Shown: piece by piece, positions 155 through 34,341 of the stretch
Layout: each line of letters begins with the position of its first letter
Position numbering within the stretch: position 1 is the stretch's first letter
Assembly: GCA_015063165.1 (NCBI GenBank)
Contig: SUSZ01000027.1
Location: 1-34,341, forward strand
Reading direction: 5' to 3'
From: Thermoplasmata archaeon
Lineage (GTDB): Archaea; Thermoplasmatota; Thermoplasmata; Methanomassiliicoccales; Methanomethylophilaceae
DNA length: 34,341 nucleotides
Notes under the pieces: model-generated
The model's input: only the letters and a program-made list of their open reading frames with translations
Told to the model about the DNA's origin: nothing
Databases searched by the model: none
Made by a program: the position numbers and the translations under genes

Positions 155-601
155 GTGATAGATACGGGCGATGTGATCTCGATAAAGACTCAGTACTTGA
201 TCTACGCGGGCACGAAACGCGACGATTTCAGCGGCTGGACCAAGATAGACGTTCCGGACGACGATCGCATGGAGATCTGGGCCTTGGACATCGGAGGGGG
301 CTACGTCCTCCAGAGGGCCGTGAAGAAGGTCAAGGGGATCTTCGGAGAGAGGACCCTGAGGTCCACCGCCCTCCGCCACGACAGGTCCATAGTGGACCCC
401 GACAGCGACTACATCGACTCGTGCTTCACCGTCCTGCTGAACGTGAAGATGACGGTCGACGACGCCACCGTGAAGTTCGAGAGCAAGAACAACTCCTGCA
501 CCGTGATCTCAAGAGCCGAGGTCGACTGGAAGGAGTTCGAATCCGGGGAGCCAGTGCAGCCCAAGGAGGACAACTCCAGCTACTCCAGCTTCTACTCCTG
601 A
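155..601 (+). CDS. Hypothetical protein, 148 aa
   Basis: I do not recognise a family. The frame opens with GTG at 155; a second GTG at 173 is preceded by a GGTGA at 154-158 and could be the true start. An A/T run at 141-151 resembles an archaeal TATA box, which would put transcription close to either start. The protein has an N-terminal half of mixed beta-strand character and a polar tail rich in Ser, Tyr, Glu and Asn. No signal peptide or membrane segment is visible. A hairpin with a T tract directly follows the stop. Codon use, rich in GC-ending codons, matches the following genes, so I believe it is real; its function is unknown. Confidence 0.6.
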   Translation: MIDTGDVISIKTQYLIYAGTKRDDFSGWTKIDVPDDDRMEIWALDIGGGYVLQRAVKKVKGIFGERTLRSTALRHDRSIVDPDSDYIDSCFTVLLNVKMTVDDATVKFESKNNSCTVISRAEVDWKEFESGEPVQPKEDNSSYSSFYS

Positions 602-615
602 ACTAACAACCTTAG

Positions 616-637
616 AAAGCCCCGGAAAGGCTTTTCT
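616..637 (+). terminator. Hairpin with T tract after first gene
   Basis: AAAGCC (616-621) and GGCTTT (629-634) form a stem with a 7-nt loop, followed by a T-rich run. It lies 15 nt after the stop at 601 and before the helicase start at 660, so it probably ends the upstream transcript. Confidence 0.5.
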
Positions 638-659
638 CTAATCCCGAGGCTCTCCAGGC

Positions 660-2747
660 ATGGACCCCGAGAGCCTCTCCACCATCCTGGCTGATTCGGC
701 ATCTGGCGTTTATTCCTACATGGACGACATGCAGTTCGTCAGCGACCCGCCGAAGGGCGTCATCATCACGGAGGTGTCCTCGTACGACGTCAGGGACGGA
801 TACGCCGTTCTGCACCTGCAGTCCCTGCCTCACGACACGGGCGCGCTGATGCTGCAGGTGGATTCCGAGCTTCTTGCTGGAGACGAAGCCGGATTCACCC
901 GCTACGACGAGGTGTCGCGCACGATAGTGGTGCATCCCGGGCCGAACGTCCTCTCTGCGATGGCGATAGCCCACCCCTGCGTCAGGGTTCTGTCCGATAT
1001 GAAGTTCCTGGTCAGAGCGCTGATGGAGTTCCTCGGAAAGCATTCCGGCTCGATAGACATTCCATGCCTACCTCCTTCGGCGGGAGAGCCGGAGTTCCCG
1101 GACGGGGCCGAGCCTTCCGAGCAGCAGAGAAAAGCCGTCCGCAGAGTTCTGTCCAGCCCCCTTTCGTACGTTTGGGGGGCGCCCGGGACAGGGAAGACGC
1201 AGTTCGTTCTGGCCACATGCATCAAGACCTGCATATCGTCAGGAATGAAAGTGGCGGTATTCGCGCCCACGAACAACTCGGTGGAGCAGGTCCTTCGCGG
1301 AATCCTCAAGGCATTCGACGAGAAGGAGCTTGGCAAAGGGGTCCTCCGCCTCGGCGTGCCGACAAAGACGTTCCTCCTGGAGCATCCGGACATGTGCGAG
1401 GACTCTCAGGCCCAGAAGAGGGCCGACAGGCTCAGGAAGAGCATCGAGAACATGGAGGAGATCCTGTTCGAGAGGACCTGCGACAGGATCAGGCCCAGGA
1501 TCGACAGGCTCTCCGAGCGTCTGGAGTTCATGGACGGGACTGCGACCATAGCCATGGCCCCCGAGATGGGCAGGGAGATGGCGCCTATCCTCACCCTGTG
1601 CTCGCGCACGAGGACCATAGACTGCGATGAGGACAGGGATCTGAGGGAGATCCTGGCCGAGGCGAGATCCGCTCTCTACGACCGCGACAGGCCTGCCCTG
1701 GACATCGCGGAATACAGGAACATGACCGACGGGGACGTCGCCAGGATGATATCGTCGCTGGAGGACGAGCTCGAGAGCATATCGTCCAGATGCACCAACA
1801 GGCGCGTGAGGGACGTCTCCGTGGTGGCAGGGACCCCTCTGCAGTTCATCTCCCGCTTCAGGCCCAGAGGCTCCGCCGACGACGGCAGGATGGAGCTGGA
1901 CGTGGACCGCATCTTCCTGGACGAGGCGGGCTACTGCAGCCTGATGCATGCGGTCACGCTGTTCACCAACGGCGTTCCGATTGCCTTCCTGGGGGACCAT
2001 ATGCAGCTCCCTCCGGTGTGCGAGATCGACAGCGAGCTCCTCAGACACTGGTCCGAGGGCAACAGCCGCCTCAAGGACGCCTTCCTGTGGGACATGAGCG
2101 CCCTCTGCTGCGAATCCCTAATCACTGGCGACAGGGACAGCCTGGCGCGCTCCTACGCCGAAGGAACGGAGCCTAGGATGGATCTGACGGTACGCAGCGA
2201 CCTGACCGAATCGCACAGGTTCGGGCCAAACCTAGCCGGCATACTGGATTCGTTCGTCTACCACAACGGGATGAAGGGCTTCGGAGAGGGCAACCTGCGG
2301 ATGCTCTGCATCGATGCCAGATGCAGGTCCAGAAAGAGGAGGGAGAACGACGCCGAGAGGGATGCCGTGGTTTCTTTCCTGGAGGCGGAACGCCCCGATC
2401 CTCTTTCCATAGCCATCCTCACGCCGTATGCCGACCAGACGAAGATGCTGAAAGGCTCCGTCGGCAGGTACAGGGACTGCGTGATGACCGTCCACGCCTC
2501 CCAGGGAAGGGAATGGGACACGGTGGTCCTGAGCGTGGCGGACAACGGGGTCCTGTCAAGGGACGTCCCGTTCAGGTTCACGAGCTCCTCGACCGAGATG
2601 GGTCTGAAGATCGTCAACACCGCCGTATCCAGAGCCAGGAGGAGGCTGGTCCTGGTCTGCGACAAGGAGTTCTGGACATCCAAGGGGAACGAGCTCATCG
2701 GAAGGATAGCGGAGGAATCGGAGCCCTGGAAGCCGCCGGACGCATGA
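660..2747 (+). CDS. SF1 helicase, Upf1/DNA2-like (AAA_11/AAA_12)
   Basis: Predicted ATP-dependent nucleic acid helicase of superfamily 1, 695 aa. Walker A GAPGTGKT lies near residue 173. Motif Ia (APTNNSVEQ) follows. Walker B appears as FLDEAG near residue 420, then motif III GDHMQLPP near 446. The second RecA domain has SHRFG, the motif V-like HASQGREWD near 615, and motif VI TAVSRARRRL near the C-terminus. A helical insert rich in Glu and Arg (about residues 250-390) separates motifs Ia and II, as in Upf1/DNA2-like helicases. The N-terminal 150 residues match nothing I know. No nuclease domain is visible. The next gene begins 46 nt after the stop. Whether the substrate is RNA or DNA cannot be told from the sequence. 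Confidence 0.9.
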   Translation: MDPESLSTILADSASGVYSYMDDMQFVSDPPKGVIITEVSSYDVRDGYAVLHLQSLPHDTGALMLQVDSELLAGDEAGFTRYDEVSRTIVVHPGPNVLSAMAIAHPCVRVLSDMKFLVRALMEFLGKHSGSIDIPCLPPSAGEPEFPDGAEPSEQQRKAVRRVLSSPLSYVWGAPGTGKTQFVLATCIKTCISSGMKVAVFAPTNNSVEQVLRGILKAFDEKELGKGVLRLGVPTKTFLLEHPDMCEDSQAQKRADRLRKSIENMEEILFERTCDRIRPRIDRLSERLEFMDGTATIAMAPEMGREMAPILTLCSRTRTIDCDEDRDLREILAEARSALYDRDRPALDIAEYRNMTDGDVARMISSLEDELESISSRCTNRRVRDVSVVAGTPLQFISRFRPRGSADDGRMELDVDRIFLDEAGYCSLMHAVTLFTNGVPIAFLGDHMQLPPVCEIDSELLRHWSEGNSRLKDAFLWDMSALCCESLITGDRDSLARSYAEGTEPRMDLTVRSDLTESHRFGPNLAGILDSFVYHNGMKGFGEGNLRMLCIDARCRSRKRRENDAERDAVVSFLEAERPDPLSIAILTPYADQTKMLKGSVGRYRDCVMTVHASQGREWDTVVLSVADNGVLSRDVPFRFTSSSTEMGLKIVNTAVSRARRRLVLVCDKEFWTSKGNELIGRIAEESEPWKPPDA

Positions 2748-2792: not shown

Positions 2793-3182
2793 ATGGAGCT
2801 GGAGATCCTGCCGTACGCCCTCACAGTCTGCAAGCTGGGAACATTGGACAGGACTGTTCTCTCCAAGGAGTTCCTGTTCATCGGGAAGACCGACGAGGAG
2901 CTATCCCTGGTGTGCAGGACCGAGGACGTTCCGTCCGAGACGCTCGAGAGGGAGGACGGCTGGCGCGGGCTTCGCGTCAAGGGAATCCTCGACTTCTCGA
3001 TGGTGGGGGTCCTGTCAGAGCTCACGTCCATACTCGCCGAAGCCGGGGTGGGGATTTTCGCGGTGTCCACCTACAACACCGACTACATCCTGTTCAAGGA
3101 AAAAGATTATAAAAGAGCGATTTCTGCGCTCGGAGGCTCTGGGCACACTATAGTCCTAAATCGAGTCACGATGCGAGCATGA
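2793..3182 (+). CDS. ACT domain-containing protein
   Basis: A 129-aa protein with two ACT-like halves. The second half (about residues 75-125) carries the pattern GILDFSMVGVLSELTSILAE followed by GVGIFAVSTYNTDYIL, typical of ACT domains of the CASTOR/ACT_7 type that bind amino acids. It is probably an intracellular ligand sensor, though no catalytic partner is fused to it. ATG at 2793 is preferred over the in-frame GTG at 2784 because GGAGTGA (2781-2787) sits 5 nt before the ATG. The gene follows the helicase closely and may be cotranscribed; its ligand is unknown. Confidence 0.8.
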   Translation: MELEILPYALTVCKLGTLDRTVLSKEFLFIGKTDEELSLVCRTEDVPSETLEREDGWRGLRVKGILDFSMVGVLSELTSILAEAGVGIFAVSTYNTDYILFKEKDYKRAISALGGSGHTIVLNRVTMRA

Positions 3183-30561: not shown

Positions 30562-30642
30562 ATGGAAAAAAGCCCGAAAAGGGAGTTGTTACTCTTCTTT
30601 AAATATCCACATGCTGTGCATGCTTTTGGTGATTTGTTATGA
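30562..30642 (+). CDS. Possible 26-aa leader ORF upstream of HEPN gene
   Basis: ATG 30562 follows GGAGGGGTG and the frame (MEKSPKRELLLFFKYP to GDLL) ends with TGA overlapping the start of the HEPN gene as ATGA (30639-30642). It could couple or attenuate translation of the toxin-like gene. A TATA-like TTTAAATA (30597-30604) inside it may instead give a shorter mRNA. The remainder of the 238-base gap 30401-30638 has one hairpin (CCCCTC/GAGGGG, 30538-30559) and no other gene. Confidence 0.35.
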   Translation: MEKSPKRELLLFFKYPHAVHAFGDLL

Positions 30643-31529
30643 TTTTTGTGTCTCTTAGGGATAGATTGAATCCCCCTCAGCCCGTCAATGAATTTGTTAG
30701 AGACAGAACCACAACAGGATTTAAAAATCAGATTTTGAATATAATTCATAGACATTACTATTCGCAACATTATGATTCTATGGCGTTTAGTATCAGCTCA
30801 TATTCACATGAGATTGTTCAAACATACGCCACATCCAAATCTTTAGAACCTTTGGGACCAAACAAAGTTTATAATGAGAATGCCGTCTATGAGATTCTTA
30901 AAAAGAGCGAAGATTATGCTTTCTTTGAGTTTCTTGATTGTGTGATTTTCACTTTGTATTCGGATCCTCATATCAGGTATTTGCCGTCTTTTAATGAATT
31001 CATATCCGATCTTAATGAATCTATGAAATTGCATGGCGTAGATTATGTCATAATTGAGGGTCATTTGGAATATCGTATTGAAGAGACAATATTCGAATCG
31101 GCAGTTAAACCGTGTCTGTCTATTCTACAGCGTCAGGGATTGTGTGATGCGGACAAATATTTGCTTGATTCCTTCCAGTCTTATAAGCAAGGTAATAATA
31201 ATGAGGCAATTGAGTTTGCCGTCAAATCTTTGGAAAATGTTGTCCAATACATTTTGGATGTTAACAAAATAGACTATGATCCCAAGGATATGAAATTACA
31301 GAACAGGATACCTTTGATAATGAAAGGGTCCAATTCTGAATTTTTATCAAAAAAGATGTCTGGCCAGTATATTCAAATGGAAAAGATTTTCCAGGTAGCC
31401 ATGTCATCAAGGAATGAAGTGACCCACGGATCGAAGTCTTTTGAAGCAGATGATTCCTTAGTTGAGCACACAATCAATATCGTGGCAGCAGATATTCTGT
31501 TTCTAATGAAGACCTGTTTGAAGAACTGA
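30639..31529 (+). CDS. HEPN-domain abortive-infection-like protein (AbiJ-like)
   Basis: A 296-aa protein with an N-terminal FVSLRDRLNPPQPVNEF and TTTGFKNQILNIIHRHYY, reminiscent of AbiJ N-terminal domains. A helical C-terminal half ends with MSSRNEVTHGSKSF, giving the Rx4H motif (R-N-E-V-T-H) of HEPN ribonucleases near residue 265. AbiJ and relatives act in phage defence, probably by cutting RNA. ATG 30639 has GGTGAT 4 nt upstream and overlaps a small ORF as ATGA. This is the most AT-rich gene of the window, with A/T-ending codons throughout, so it was very likely acquired from outside. No antitoxin is adjacent. The domain assignment is by eye. Confidence 0.6.
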   Translation: MIFVSLRDRLNPPQPVNEFVRDRTTTGFKNQILNIIHRHYYSQHYDSMAFSISSYSHEIVQTYATSKSLEPLGPNKVYNENAVYEILKKSEDYAFFEFLDCVIFTLYSDPHIRYLPSFNEFISDLNESMKLHGVDYVIIEGHLEYRIEETIFESAVKPCLSILQRQGLCDADKYLLDSFQSYKQGNNNEAIEFAVKSLENVVQYILDVNKIDYDPKDMKLQNRIPLIMKGSNSEFLSKKMSGQYIQMEKIFQVAMSSRNEVTHGSKSFEADDSLVEHTINIVAADILFLMKTCLKN

Positions 31530-31800: not shown

Positions 31801-32835
31801 TCAGGATGTGGCCAGGCCGAGGAGCAGGGGCATGGGATGCCCTTCGCGGAACGCCTCCTCGGGCGTCCTCAGGCCGCAGGACCAGTGCGGGCGCTCCCTG
31901 TCGTAGAAAGCGGCGTACTCGCGTATCCATGCGCTGTACTATTCCAAGGTCCCTTCTTTGAGGATGCCGGCCTCCCTGCGAATGGATCCGTGCCACCTCT
32001 CGACCTTGCCCTGCGTGGTCGGCTTGCGGACCTGGCCCAAGATGTGATCCACGCCCCATTTCGCACAGAATTCGTCGAAACGCATGTCCCCTCCGTTGCT
32101 TGCGCACCATTGTGTGCCGTGATCGGACAGGATTCTCTTCGGTATGCCGTAGCTCATGAAGCAATCCTCCAGGACGCCGATGACGTGCTCAGTCGTAGGG
32201 TGTATGGTGGGGTCGGTCGCGAGAATGTACCTCGATTTATCATCGATCACGGACAGGTGCTCCACCCTCATTCCGGAAACGCGGTCGAGTCCCAGCTCCA
32301 CGTAGTCGATCTGCCACATGTCGTTGACATGTGGCATCTCGAAGCTCCTGTAGACCGTGCCCGTCCTCATCGTGACGTTCTTGTACCCGTTCCTTCTGAG
32401 GACGCTGTGGACGGTCTTGGGGGATGCGCTCACCCCTGCGATGACGCCTATCTTGGCCGCTCCGAGATATGGATGCTTCGCCTTGACATCGAGGATCCTG
32501 GCGCTGATGGCGTCCTGGACCACGGTGTGCTCGCCCTTCCTGGGCCCGCGCCGCTTGCGTTTCATGAGCTCCTTCACGCTATTCTTCTTAGAGTAGTCGG
32601 TCATGGGGACGCCATTACGCCTGTAGTGCGTGGCGTCGAGGCCGAGATCGCGTATGTCGGCGATATGCGTATGGGAGCAGTGAAACTGCCTTCCCATCTC
32701 GCGCAGAGACGGCCTTTTCGCATCCGGTTCCCCGTTCGAATCGACGAAGCACTGAAGGATACGGTGCCTTTCGGACTCGACTTTTTGCTCATCTTTAAGT
32801 CTGCGTTTCTCATAGCGGTCATGGGGCTTGTTCAT
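31801..32835 (-). CDS. IS481-like DDE transposase, interrupted by TAG
   Basis: Read from ATG 32835, the protein has an N-terminal helix-turn-helix region (SLREMGRQFHCSHTHIADIR, then AAKIGVIAGVSASPKTVHSV). An rve-type DDE core follows: MWQIDYVEL (first Asp), RILSDHGTQWCA (second Asp), GKVERWHGSIRREA (Glu). At 31941-31939 the frame reads TAG after TLE, then continues with YSAWIREYAAFYDRERPHWS and LRTPEEAFREGHP to TGA at 31803-31801. That tail is the normal end of this family, so the full protein has 345 codons with TAG at position 299. It may be inactivated, or completed by TAG decoding. The termini of the element are not clear; no inverted repeats could be matched. Confidence 0.8.
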
Positions 32836-33063: not shown

Positions 33064-33180
33064 ATGGATTGCATCAGCTGGTACAACGACTTCGCATCCC
33101 GCGGATTCCCGCTCCAGGAGACGCTGGAATTCATGGACTGCCTGAGCAAAAGCGACGACATAGGCCGAAATTCTGCGCAT
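33064..33180 (+). pseudogene. 5' end of a gene cut by the IS1634-like element
   Basis: The first 39 or so codons (MDCISWYNDFASRGFPLQET, then LEFMDCLSKSDDIG and a few more) have a full set of start signals: TATA box, GGTGA and ATG with 5-nt spacing. Near 33180 the sequence passes into the 3' end of the transposase on the other strand (stop at 33190). The rest of the gene is outside the window or lost. I do not recognise the protein. Confidence 0.6.
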
Positions 33181-33189
33181 GTAAGTAAT

Positions 33190-34215
33190 TCAGTCCTTGG
33201 AGATCGCGAGGCGCCTGAGGTCGCATACCTCGACGCCCGAGATCGGCTCCTTCGGGACATCGACCCCGAACAGCCCGAAGATGCTCCTGCAGTTCTTCGA
33301 GATCTCGGACAATGCCGACGACGACCCGTAGCTCAGGCAGTTTATGGTGTTGAGGTATCCGATGGCCTGGCCGACGGACATATCCCTCCTCCCCGATTCC
33401 CTTATCTCCGCGCAGAGCTCGCATTTCAGGATGAGGGCCACGAACCTGATCAGCGAGCGCCCTATCATCGTGTGCTTGTCCGGGGTGCGATGCCTCCTGT
33501 CCTCCGATTTGCTGAAGTCGAAAGCCTGCTCGGTCAGCCTCCTGGCATCGTACGCGGTCATCACCGTGGGCCAGTCGAGATCCGTGGACGACAGCATGAC
33601 GAACACCCCCGCGCGGTTCTCGGCGAAGGAGATGGAGTTCTGCTTCTCCCTCACGACCACCTTCCTTCCGTCGGCCTGCACGTCGAAGTGCCTGATGGCC
33701 CTGCCCGCTATCTTCTTGAATCTGGCTACCGGATCCCTGCATTCGATCTCGGCGGCCTTCCTCTTGAGGTCGTCCAGCATCATCTTGTGGCTCTGGACCT
33801 CGTCGGAGAACTTCTTCGAGTCGAAGCAGACGTACGCGTTCAGCATGCCGCTCTTGCCGTGTCCGGCGTCGCCGGACACCGTGAAGGAGTAGGCCTGCGA
33901 CCCGTCAGCCGCGAGCCTGTCCGCTTCCGCGATGCCTATCCTCGTCATCCAGACCTTGTACGCATGGCCGTCATGGACCAAGTCCTGCGACTCGTTGGTC
34001 TTCACGAACCTGGACATCAGCGTCTTGATCGCTTTGGAGGAGGTGTTCGCAGGTGCTGTGAACCTTATCCCGTTATCCAGGAGGTGCTTGACGTTCGCCC
34101 CGGACACGAATCCCCTGTCGAAGACGAACAGAGCGTCCTCCTTCCCGTACCTCCTGATGTCGGAGACCATCCTGTCGACGGTGGCGATATCGGATATCGT
34201 GCCCGGATAGTGGCG
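33190..34215 (-). CDS. IS1634-like transposase, downstream exon (5' part cut by group II intron)
   Basis: The frame encodes the C-terminal 341 residues of an IS4-superfamily transposase close to IS1634: RHYPGTISDIATVDRMVSDI, then LFVFDRGFVSG with the second catalytic Asp, and the YREK signature in TAYDARRLTEQAFDFSK (Y-2-R-3-E-6-K). The first catalytic Asp is missing because it lies upstream. The open frame continues 15 codons further to 34260, but those codons belong to the intron. The coding exon should start at about 34215, just after CTACTCGAT. The first exon is beyond the window edge. Expression would need splicing of the intron. Confidence 0.8.
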   Translation of the reverse strand, partial: RHYPGTISDIATVDRMVSDIRRYGKEDALFVFDRGFVSGANVKHLLDNGIRFTAPANTSSKAIKTLMSRFVKTNESQDLVHDGHAYKVWMTRIGIAEADRLAADGSQAYSFTVSGDAGHGKSGMLNAYVCFDSKKFSDEVQSHKMMLDDLKRKAAEIECRDPVARFKKIAGRAIRHFDVQADGRKVVVREKQNSISFAENRAGVFVMLSSTDLDWPTVMTAYDARRLTEQAFDFSKSEDRRHRTPDKHTMIGRSLIRFVALILKCELCAEIRESGRRDMSVGQAIGYLNTINCLSYGSSSALSEISKNCRSIFGLFGVDVPKEPISGVEVCDLRRLAISKD

Positions 34216-34341
34216 ATCGAGTAGGGTCCGATGAGCATGGCTCATCGGTTGCCCTCTCACACCACCGTACGTACTTCTCGTATACGGCGGTTCGTCAGTC
34301 TGACATGTGTGTCCTCATACATCTTGAGCATCGGCGGAAAA
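34216..34341 (-). ncRNA. 3' end of a group II intron (domains V and VI)
   Basis: On the minus strand 34291-34261 folds as domain V: ACCGCCGTA pairs with TACGGTGGT, with the two-base bulge CG, a short upper stem TAC/GTA and a purine-rich GAGAA loop. The triad position reads CGC. A second hairpin, CCGATGAG/CTCATCGG (34248-34228), fits domain VI, and the intron would end with CTACTCGAT at 34216, directly before a codon of the transposase. The bulged adenosine of domain VI is not obvious. Domains I-IV and any reverse transcriptase lie outside the window. Boundaries are inferred. Confidence 0.7.

Follow-up and report, generated by a model that had tools for sequence, protein, structure and literature searches.

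What interrupts the transposase gene at the end of this contig, and where is the rest of the gene? The window, that is, the whole stretch of DNA analysed here, has a length of 34,341 nt and represents the complete contig C42 of genome G000 (2.28 Mb, 67 contigs, 99.9% complete), which belongs to a Methanomethylophilaceae-type methanogen of a gut lineage. The reading that we favour, with a probability of about 0.9, is that a mobile group IIC intron has inserted, by way of a hairpin, in a single IS1634 transposase gene of this methanogen.

A group II intron 3′ end terminates the contig

The last 126 nt of the intron occupy positions 34216–34341 (−), as indicated by the Rfam model RF00029, by the recurrence of this sequence on contig C54 and by the ends of related introns. 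Domain V is a hairpin at 34261–34291 (−) with a CGC triad and a 2-nt CG bulge, found in the fold of the single strand, in the fold of a 10-copy alignment and in the RF00029 match. The folds place the domain VI hairpin at 34218–34259 (−). It contains a bulged A at 34222, located 7 nt before the 3′ splice site and invariant in all 10 copies. The fold of the single-stranded intron end has a z-score of −4.2, none of 200 shuffled sequences being as stable, and the stems of both domains are kept in the alignment of 10 related intron ends, where 7 of the 26 pairs have changed on both sides. Intron ends 79–90% identical to the window copy are present in G113, G112, G045, and G087.

Against RF00029, positions 34216–34292 (−) cover 77/77 model positions with an E-value of 6.8e-6. 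The score of 36.9 bits lies about 3 bits below the gathering score of 40, which is why the default Rfam scan of the window contains no RF00029 entry. The covariance-model check foreseen in the preliminary description gives a significant score, although one under Rfam's curated threshold. The intron ends of the RT-carrying relatives G113, G112, G045, and G102 are in the same range (28.6, 30.4, 33.8, and 37.9 bits), and the shortfall is therefore a trait of the sub-lineage.

The same strand encodes the last 27 codons and the TGA stop of a reverse transcriptase (RT)/maturase (34257–34340 (−), translation FPPMLKMYEDTHVRLTNRRIREVRTVV followed by the stop), whose C-terminus is as in the full-length enzyme P0002 of G113. 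The end of this frame crosses domain V and stops just past it, so that the catalytic RNA hairpin is at the same time coding. The enzyme frame of G113 terminates likewise, through domain V. A search of viral_contigs with the exact 37-nt domain V pattern gave 0 matches.

The intron ends with CTACTCGAT at 34216 and abuts CGC CAC TAT CCG GGC (R H Y P G), which is in the transposase frame. The preliminary description had placed a domain V, a domain VI-like hairpin and this terminal motif directly before in-frame transposase codons, and RF00029, the folds, and the translation agree with it on each point.

The intron splits an IS1634-family transposase gene

Exon 2 of the transposase spans 33190–34215 (−) and comprises 341 codons plus stop, starting from the R of RHYPGTISD. 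It matches Pfam PF01609 and, together with exon 1, the NCBIfam model NF033559. Exon 1 is located on another contig of the same genome, C18, where it meets an intron 5′ end (GTGTG) at position 3168. The C18 terminus reads GACATGAGGGGCATCCCCCTCATGTTC directly before GTGTG, and the window, read from 34215 downward, opens with CGCCACTATCCGGGC. In DNA letters, the ligated junction of the joined exons would have CTCATGTTC on its left and CGCCACTAT on its right. The joined exons form 577 stop-free codons from ATG, in which TDMRGIPLMF is followed by RHYPGTISD. This 577-aa protein matches NF033559 (IS1634) with 167.2 bits over residues 42–555, the cut-off being 100, and it also lies above the cut-off of Pfam DDE_Tnp_1. 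The intron is in sense orientation and in codon phase 0 and can therefore leave the transposase mRNA whole if spliced.

The sister species G091 carries an uninterrupted copy on contig C40, with 80% DNA identity, in which TTC and CGC run on continuously with no base gained or lost. The junction motif is unbroken in 11/11 homologous loci compared. Within G000, each half of the insertion sequence (IS) is present once at 98–99% identity. The terminal inverted repeat of the IS, CCGAAATTCTGCGCATGTAAGTAATT, lies at 33165–33190 and has its partner at C18:2351–2376; the two agree at 22 of 23 positions in inverted orientation (C18:2354–2376 against window 33168–33189). The IS copy of G091 is bounded by the same terminal repeat. 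Window positions 34216–34341 thus belong to a group II intron, of which they are the 3′ end and which interrupts an IS1634-family transposase gene. The preliminary description had claimed such an insertion, and the claim is now carried by exon 1, the intron 5′ end, the 167-bit joined transposase, and the empty site of G091.

The intron is multi-copy and its body is missing from the assembly

The exact 127 nt at 34215–34341 recur once in G000, at C54:1–127, again at a contig end and with a different flank, and the intron end is therefore a repeat with a boundary of its own. At the other side, the intron 5′ end GTGTGCCCAGCACACATGG terminates three contigs, C18, C39, and C30. Each carries the motif GTGTGCCCAGCA, at 3168 in C18, and six relatives have GTGYG at this place, in line with the group II consensus GUGYG. 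G000 thus holds at least two further copies of the class C intron besides the window copy. The C39 and C30 copies are identical across their 127 intron bases. The C18 copy differs by a single private base, at intron position 51; exactly 127 nt beyond it, at position 178, the contig stops. These 178 nt are all of the intron sequence that G000 contains at the 5′ side. The breaks appear to match a k = 127 assembler at a multi-copy repeat: the window contig would stop at the intron because the intron is multi-copy, and the break of C18 at 127 nt past its private base suggests that the sequence runs on into a shared intron body.

The body itself (domains I–IV, EBS1, and most of the enzyme) is in no G000 contig. 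When the intron DNA of G113 was used as a query on G000, the ends alone were matched. A PF00078 profile search of G000 gave as its sole match an unrelated RT on C55, in surroundings that are not intron-like. This match (C55:6455–6862 (−), L008) belongs to a 466-aa RT that looks defence-type rather than intron-type and adjoins a large frame. The preliminary description had expected, upstream, domains I–IV, probably an RT, and the first transposase exon. Of these, exon 1 has been located on C18 together with the intron 5′ end; domains I–IV and the RT are seen in relatives and not in any contig of G000.

The intron copy in the IS could accordingly be dead, or a remnant with its body deleted, that neither splices nor moves, the transposase being a pseudogene. 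The absence of the body from the bin fits such a remnant, as does the C18 5′ end, which is one base off the C30 and C39 copies. However, both intron ends are intact, the exons contain neither stop nor frameshift, and the contigs break at the points at which an assembly with k = 127 is expected to branch inside a repeat of several copies. A dead copy is, in our judgement, rather unlikely, and the window copy of the favoured mobile intron probably possesses a full body and enzyme.

Full-length relatives carry a class C enzyme

Across the order, represented by 147 genomes including G000, the intron 3′ end is matched in 10 and the 5′ end in 9. Introns of 1.87–1.97 kb, starting with GTGYGCCCAGCA, are present in G113, G112, G045, G102, and G037; in G087, a contig terminus truncates the copy near the 3′ end. 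RF02001, the model of domains I–IV, scores 111–131 bits in these six full or almost full archaeal introns. The G113 enzyme P0002, 507 residues as an open frame, is composed of RVT_1 and GIIM domains and has no endonuclease domain. It matches TIGR04416, the model of group II intron RT/maturases, with 410 bits, and its best solved relatives are the RT of GsI-IIC (373 bits) and, with 332 bits, a further group II intron RT/maturase, LtrA reaching 152 bits.

In a scan of named genomes, the best 80 of 457 loci comprise five archaeal ones at the top (67–100% identity; by record title Thermoplasmata, Methanomethylophilaceae, Methanomassiliicoccales or methanogenic archaeon) and 75 bacterial ones, nearly all Bacillota by title, with 41–51% identity over the best segment. 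A quick tree with 75 enzymes, for which 17 identical rows had been dropped and two short ones skipped, sets the class C enzymes of archaea apart from every one of the 63 bacterial rows, the G037 row being long and unsure in position. In this tree, the class C enzymes also part with 100% support from those of a second group II family. Since the nearest 80 loci alone were kept, the tree gives neither a date nor a direction of transfer. Judged from sequence, the intron is of group IIC/class C; the class C enzyme is read in the relatives, and G000 keeps its last 27 codons.

The preliminary description had called group II introns rare in archaea outside a few methanogen groups. In this family they are not scarce, as RF00029 of some kind is matched in 21 of 102 genomes.

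A hairpin and a short EBS1–IBS1 pairing define the insertion sites

A hairpin lies within 32 nt upstream of the 5′ splice site at all nine readable sites, three in G000 and six in relatives. Ranked by stability among windows taken from the flank of each site, eight of these hairpins are in the top 2%; that of G045 is unremarkable, with 8% of its windows equally stable. At the transposase site, the hairpin ATGAGGGG-CATC-CCCCTCAT is the strongest in the coding sequence, and the top five of 1703 windows cover it. The target consists of the hairpin that the DMRGIPLM codons form and of a short IBS1 behind it (ATGTTC, directly before the splice site). At homologous sites, the fold reaches −18.3 in G091 and −15.9 in L088, and it is weak or absent in several remoter homologues. 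In C39, C30, G113, G087, and G102, five sites out of the nine, an open frame ends shortly before the intron.

The EBS1 loops of the six relatives pair with their own five pre-site bases at 27 of 30 positions (5/5 in G113, G112, G045, and G102, 4/5 in G087, and 3/5 in G037). When EBS1 loops and sites are re-dealt, the mean is 17.3, and 2 of 720 permutations are as good; the swap of G113 and G112 scores equally because the two share one EBS1. Shifting the site by 1–12 bases leaves 7–13 pairs. For the window copy, a 5-nt EBS1 loop similar to GAACA is predicted, which would pair with TGTTC at the C18 and C30 sites. A stem-loop with a short IBS1, the target rule of group IIC, is what these sites display as read from their sequences.

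Archaeal introns are mostly CL1A (PMC8919778), and a chloroplast-like or class D intron of group IIB, as in Methanosarcina, might be considered instead of IIC; the second intron family of G000 indeed matches RF00029 better, with 55.7 bits. Yet the enzyme of the relatives is nearest to the GsI-IIC RT and split from the second-family enzymes at 100% in the tree, it has no endonuclease domain, and the targets are hairpins with a 5-nt IBS1. A group IIB intron is very improbable on these grounds, and the assignment to group IIC is retained below.

Gene order pairs the remaining contig ends

The gene on C30 adjoins the C54 flank in three relatives (L202 of G093, L203 of G083, and L204 of G091). C30 and C54 are thus paired independently by gene order in three genomes as, on this sequence evidence, one intron copy. 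C54 was also considered as the partner of C18 and is ruled out, its flank lying beside the C30 gene in G093, G083, and G091. With C30 and C54 paired, C18 or C39 is left for C42, and the reading frame selects C18. We infer the join of C18 and C42, two separate contigs, in this way.

An assembly chimera, in which the intron end is wrongly fused to a transposase fragment, is scarcely credible: the junction does lie at the very contig end, within the 127-nt repeat common to C54, but exon 1 stands on a separate contig, where it breaks off at the homologous codon and is followed by the corresponding intron 5′ end, the G091 empty site agrees to the base, and C54 has its own partner in C30 by the gene order of three relatives.

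The flanks of the insertion sequence

Beside the IS, the window contains the start of a gene truncated by the IS (33064–33164 (+)), a 37-codon stub whose longer counterpart in G092 is weakly integrase-like. The homologue on G092:C67 is 177 aa as read, shares 78% identity over 37 residues, and matches PF00589 weakly. The flank of the IS on C18 is a fragment of a different gene. With the G092 homologue as query, the rest of the 33064 gene was not found intact in G000. No target-site duplication of the IS was found, the flanking bases being different: AACAGA on C18 and, read outward, CCTATG on C42. Loss of the target-site duplication is common after rearrangement. Its absence lowers the claim of a simple IS insertion; the transposase itself is above the family cut-off. 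The IS was likely the site of an earlier rearrangement.

The preliminary description had further proposed a three-level nest, in which the transposon holding the intron was itself inserted in the gene at 33064. This third level is doubtful, as stubs of two different genes flank the IS with no target-site duplication found. When the flanks were written as one protein and compared with 102 family genomes, no gene spanning both was found.

Other genes are located near the two flanks. On C18, a 627-aa SLFN-g3-type helicase (174–2057 (+), 359 bits) lies near the left flank of the IS. In the window, the frame at 30639–31529 (+) gives a weak match to an AbiJ N-terminal domain (25 bits, cut-off 34) and adjoins an rve-type transposase at 31939–32835 (−).

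Other nested introns and a second intron family

In G112:C6 (L054, 1280–3233), a class C intron is inserted between the halves of domain VI of a second-family remnant, forming an intron in an intron; the joined flanks match the domain V–domain VI end of the second group II family. This nest lies just behind an IS1634 transposase. In the one-contig genome G037 (C1, L062, near 1891064–1893006), a class C intron is located antisense in tnpB (IS605 OrfB), and the joined tnpB frame is intact, with 455 aa and the domains OrfB_IS605 and Cas12f1-like_TNB.

The second group II family of G000 (RF00029, 55.7 bits) has five 3′ ends, all at contig ends: C12:63032–63108 (−), C21:50–126 (+), C37:37284–37360 (−), C41:48–124 (+), and C66:14861–14937 (−). 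Its relatives possess domains I–IV of the RF02012 type and a different type of enzyme.

Proposed mechanism and implications

As for other IIC introns, an RNP composed of the intron RNA and the endonuclease-less RT would reverse-splice into DNA at the transposase hairpin. The enzyme would copy the intron with a host DNA strand as primer (PMC4424553), since an enzyme of this class would be devoid of an endonuclease domain. Splicing of the transcript would rejoin GIPLMF and RHYPG into an intact 577-aa transposase, and an unspliced transcript would leave the IS disabled. The window intron may splice in the cell. Poor splicing would restrain the IS, as described for RmInt1 in ISRm2011-2 (PMC4238363). 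A wider reading seems doubtful to us, in which the lineage uses any hairpin, codon hairpins included, and in this way nests in other mobile elements (the IS1634 transposase in G000, tnpB in G037, and domain VI of another group II intron in G112), while the window intron splices, so that the transposase would come from spliced mRNA alone and the intron would gate movement of the IS.

The locus provides a concrete archaeal group IIC intron whose target rule, a hairpin plus a 5-nt EBS1–IBS1 pairing, is legible at several natural sites in a methanogen lineage of the animal gut. Insertion in a coding sequence permits a simple test, namely whether the intron still splices and restores the host protein. 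Moreover, binned genomes can lose the bodies of multi-copy introns, and surveys that require an RT beside domain V can miss such introns. The case is a clear but ordinary parasitism of one mobile element on another.

Comparison with known systems

The archaeal intron resembles bacterial IIC introns such as GsI-IIC and Ta.it.I1. The features read in its relatives include a class C RT/maturase without endonuclease and domains I–IV of the RF02001 type, and insertion takes place just past a hairpin with a single short EBS1–IBS1 pairing, in accord with the reported target rule of IIC introns, which combines a stem-loop with a short IBS1 (PMC8919778, PMC4424553, PMC7161350). It differs in its archaeal host and in the position of the window copy, which sits on a codon hairpin within a coding sequence and not behind a terminator. 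A 2015 review gave IIC introns as bacterial only (PMC4424553). In a later survey, archaeal IEPs are assigned to the clades bacterial-C, bacterial-D, CL1A, and CL1B; of the Thermoplasmatota genomes, 15% contained group II introns (PMC8919778). The archaeal section of that survey names no target sites, host gene, Methanomassiliicoccales or transposase insertion (PMC8919778). A literature search, covering mostly titles and abstract openings, gave no publication that treats group II introns in Methanomassiliicoccales. The surprise is modest and concerns a coding hairpin as the IIC target in an archaeon.

RmInt1 is a class D/IIB intron. Lodged in ISRm2011-2 of Sinorhizobium meliloti, it is alike in arrangement, a group II intron within an insertion sequence, and its splicing efficiency controls that element (PMC4238363). 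In contrast to the window intron, its host is bacterial, the IS is another one, and splicing is demonstrated there and inferred here. The IS of the window is like others of the IS1634 family in its transposase (NF033559) and terminal inverted repeats, and unlike them in being split by an intron, with no target-site duplication found. Archaeal class C introns and introns in IS transposase genes are already known, and the window adds one more case, well resolved.
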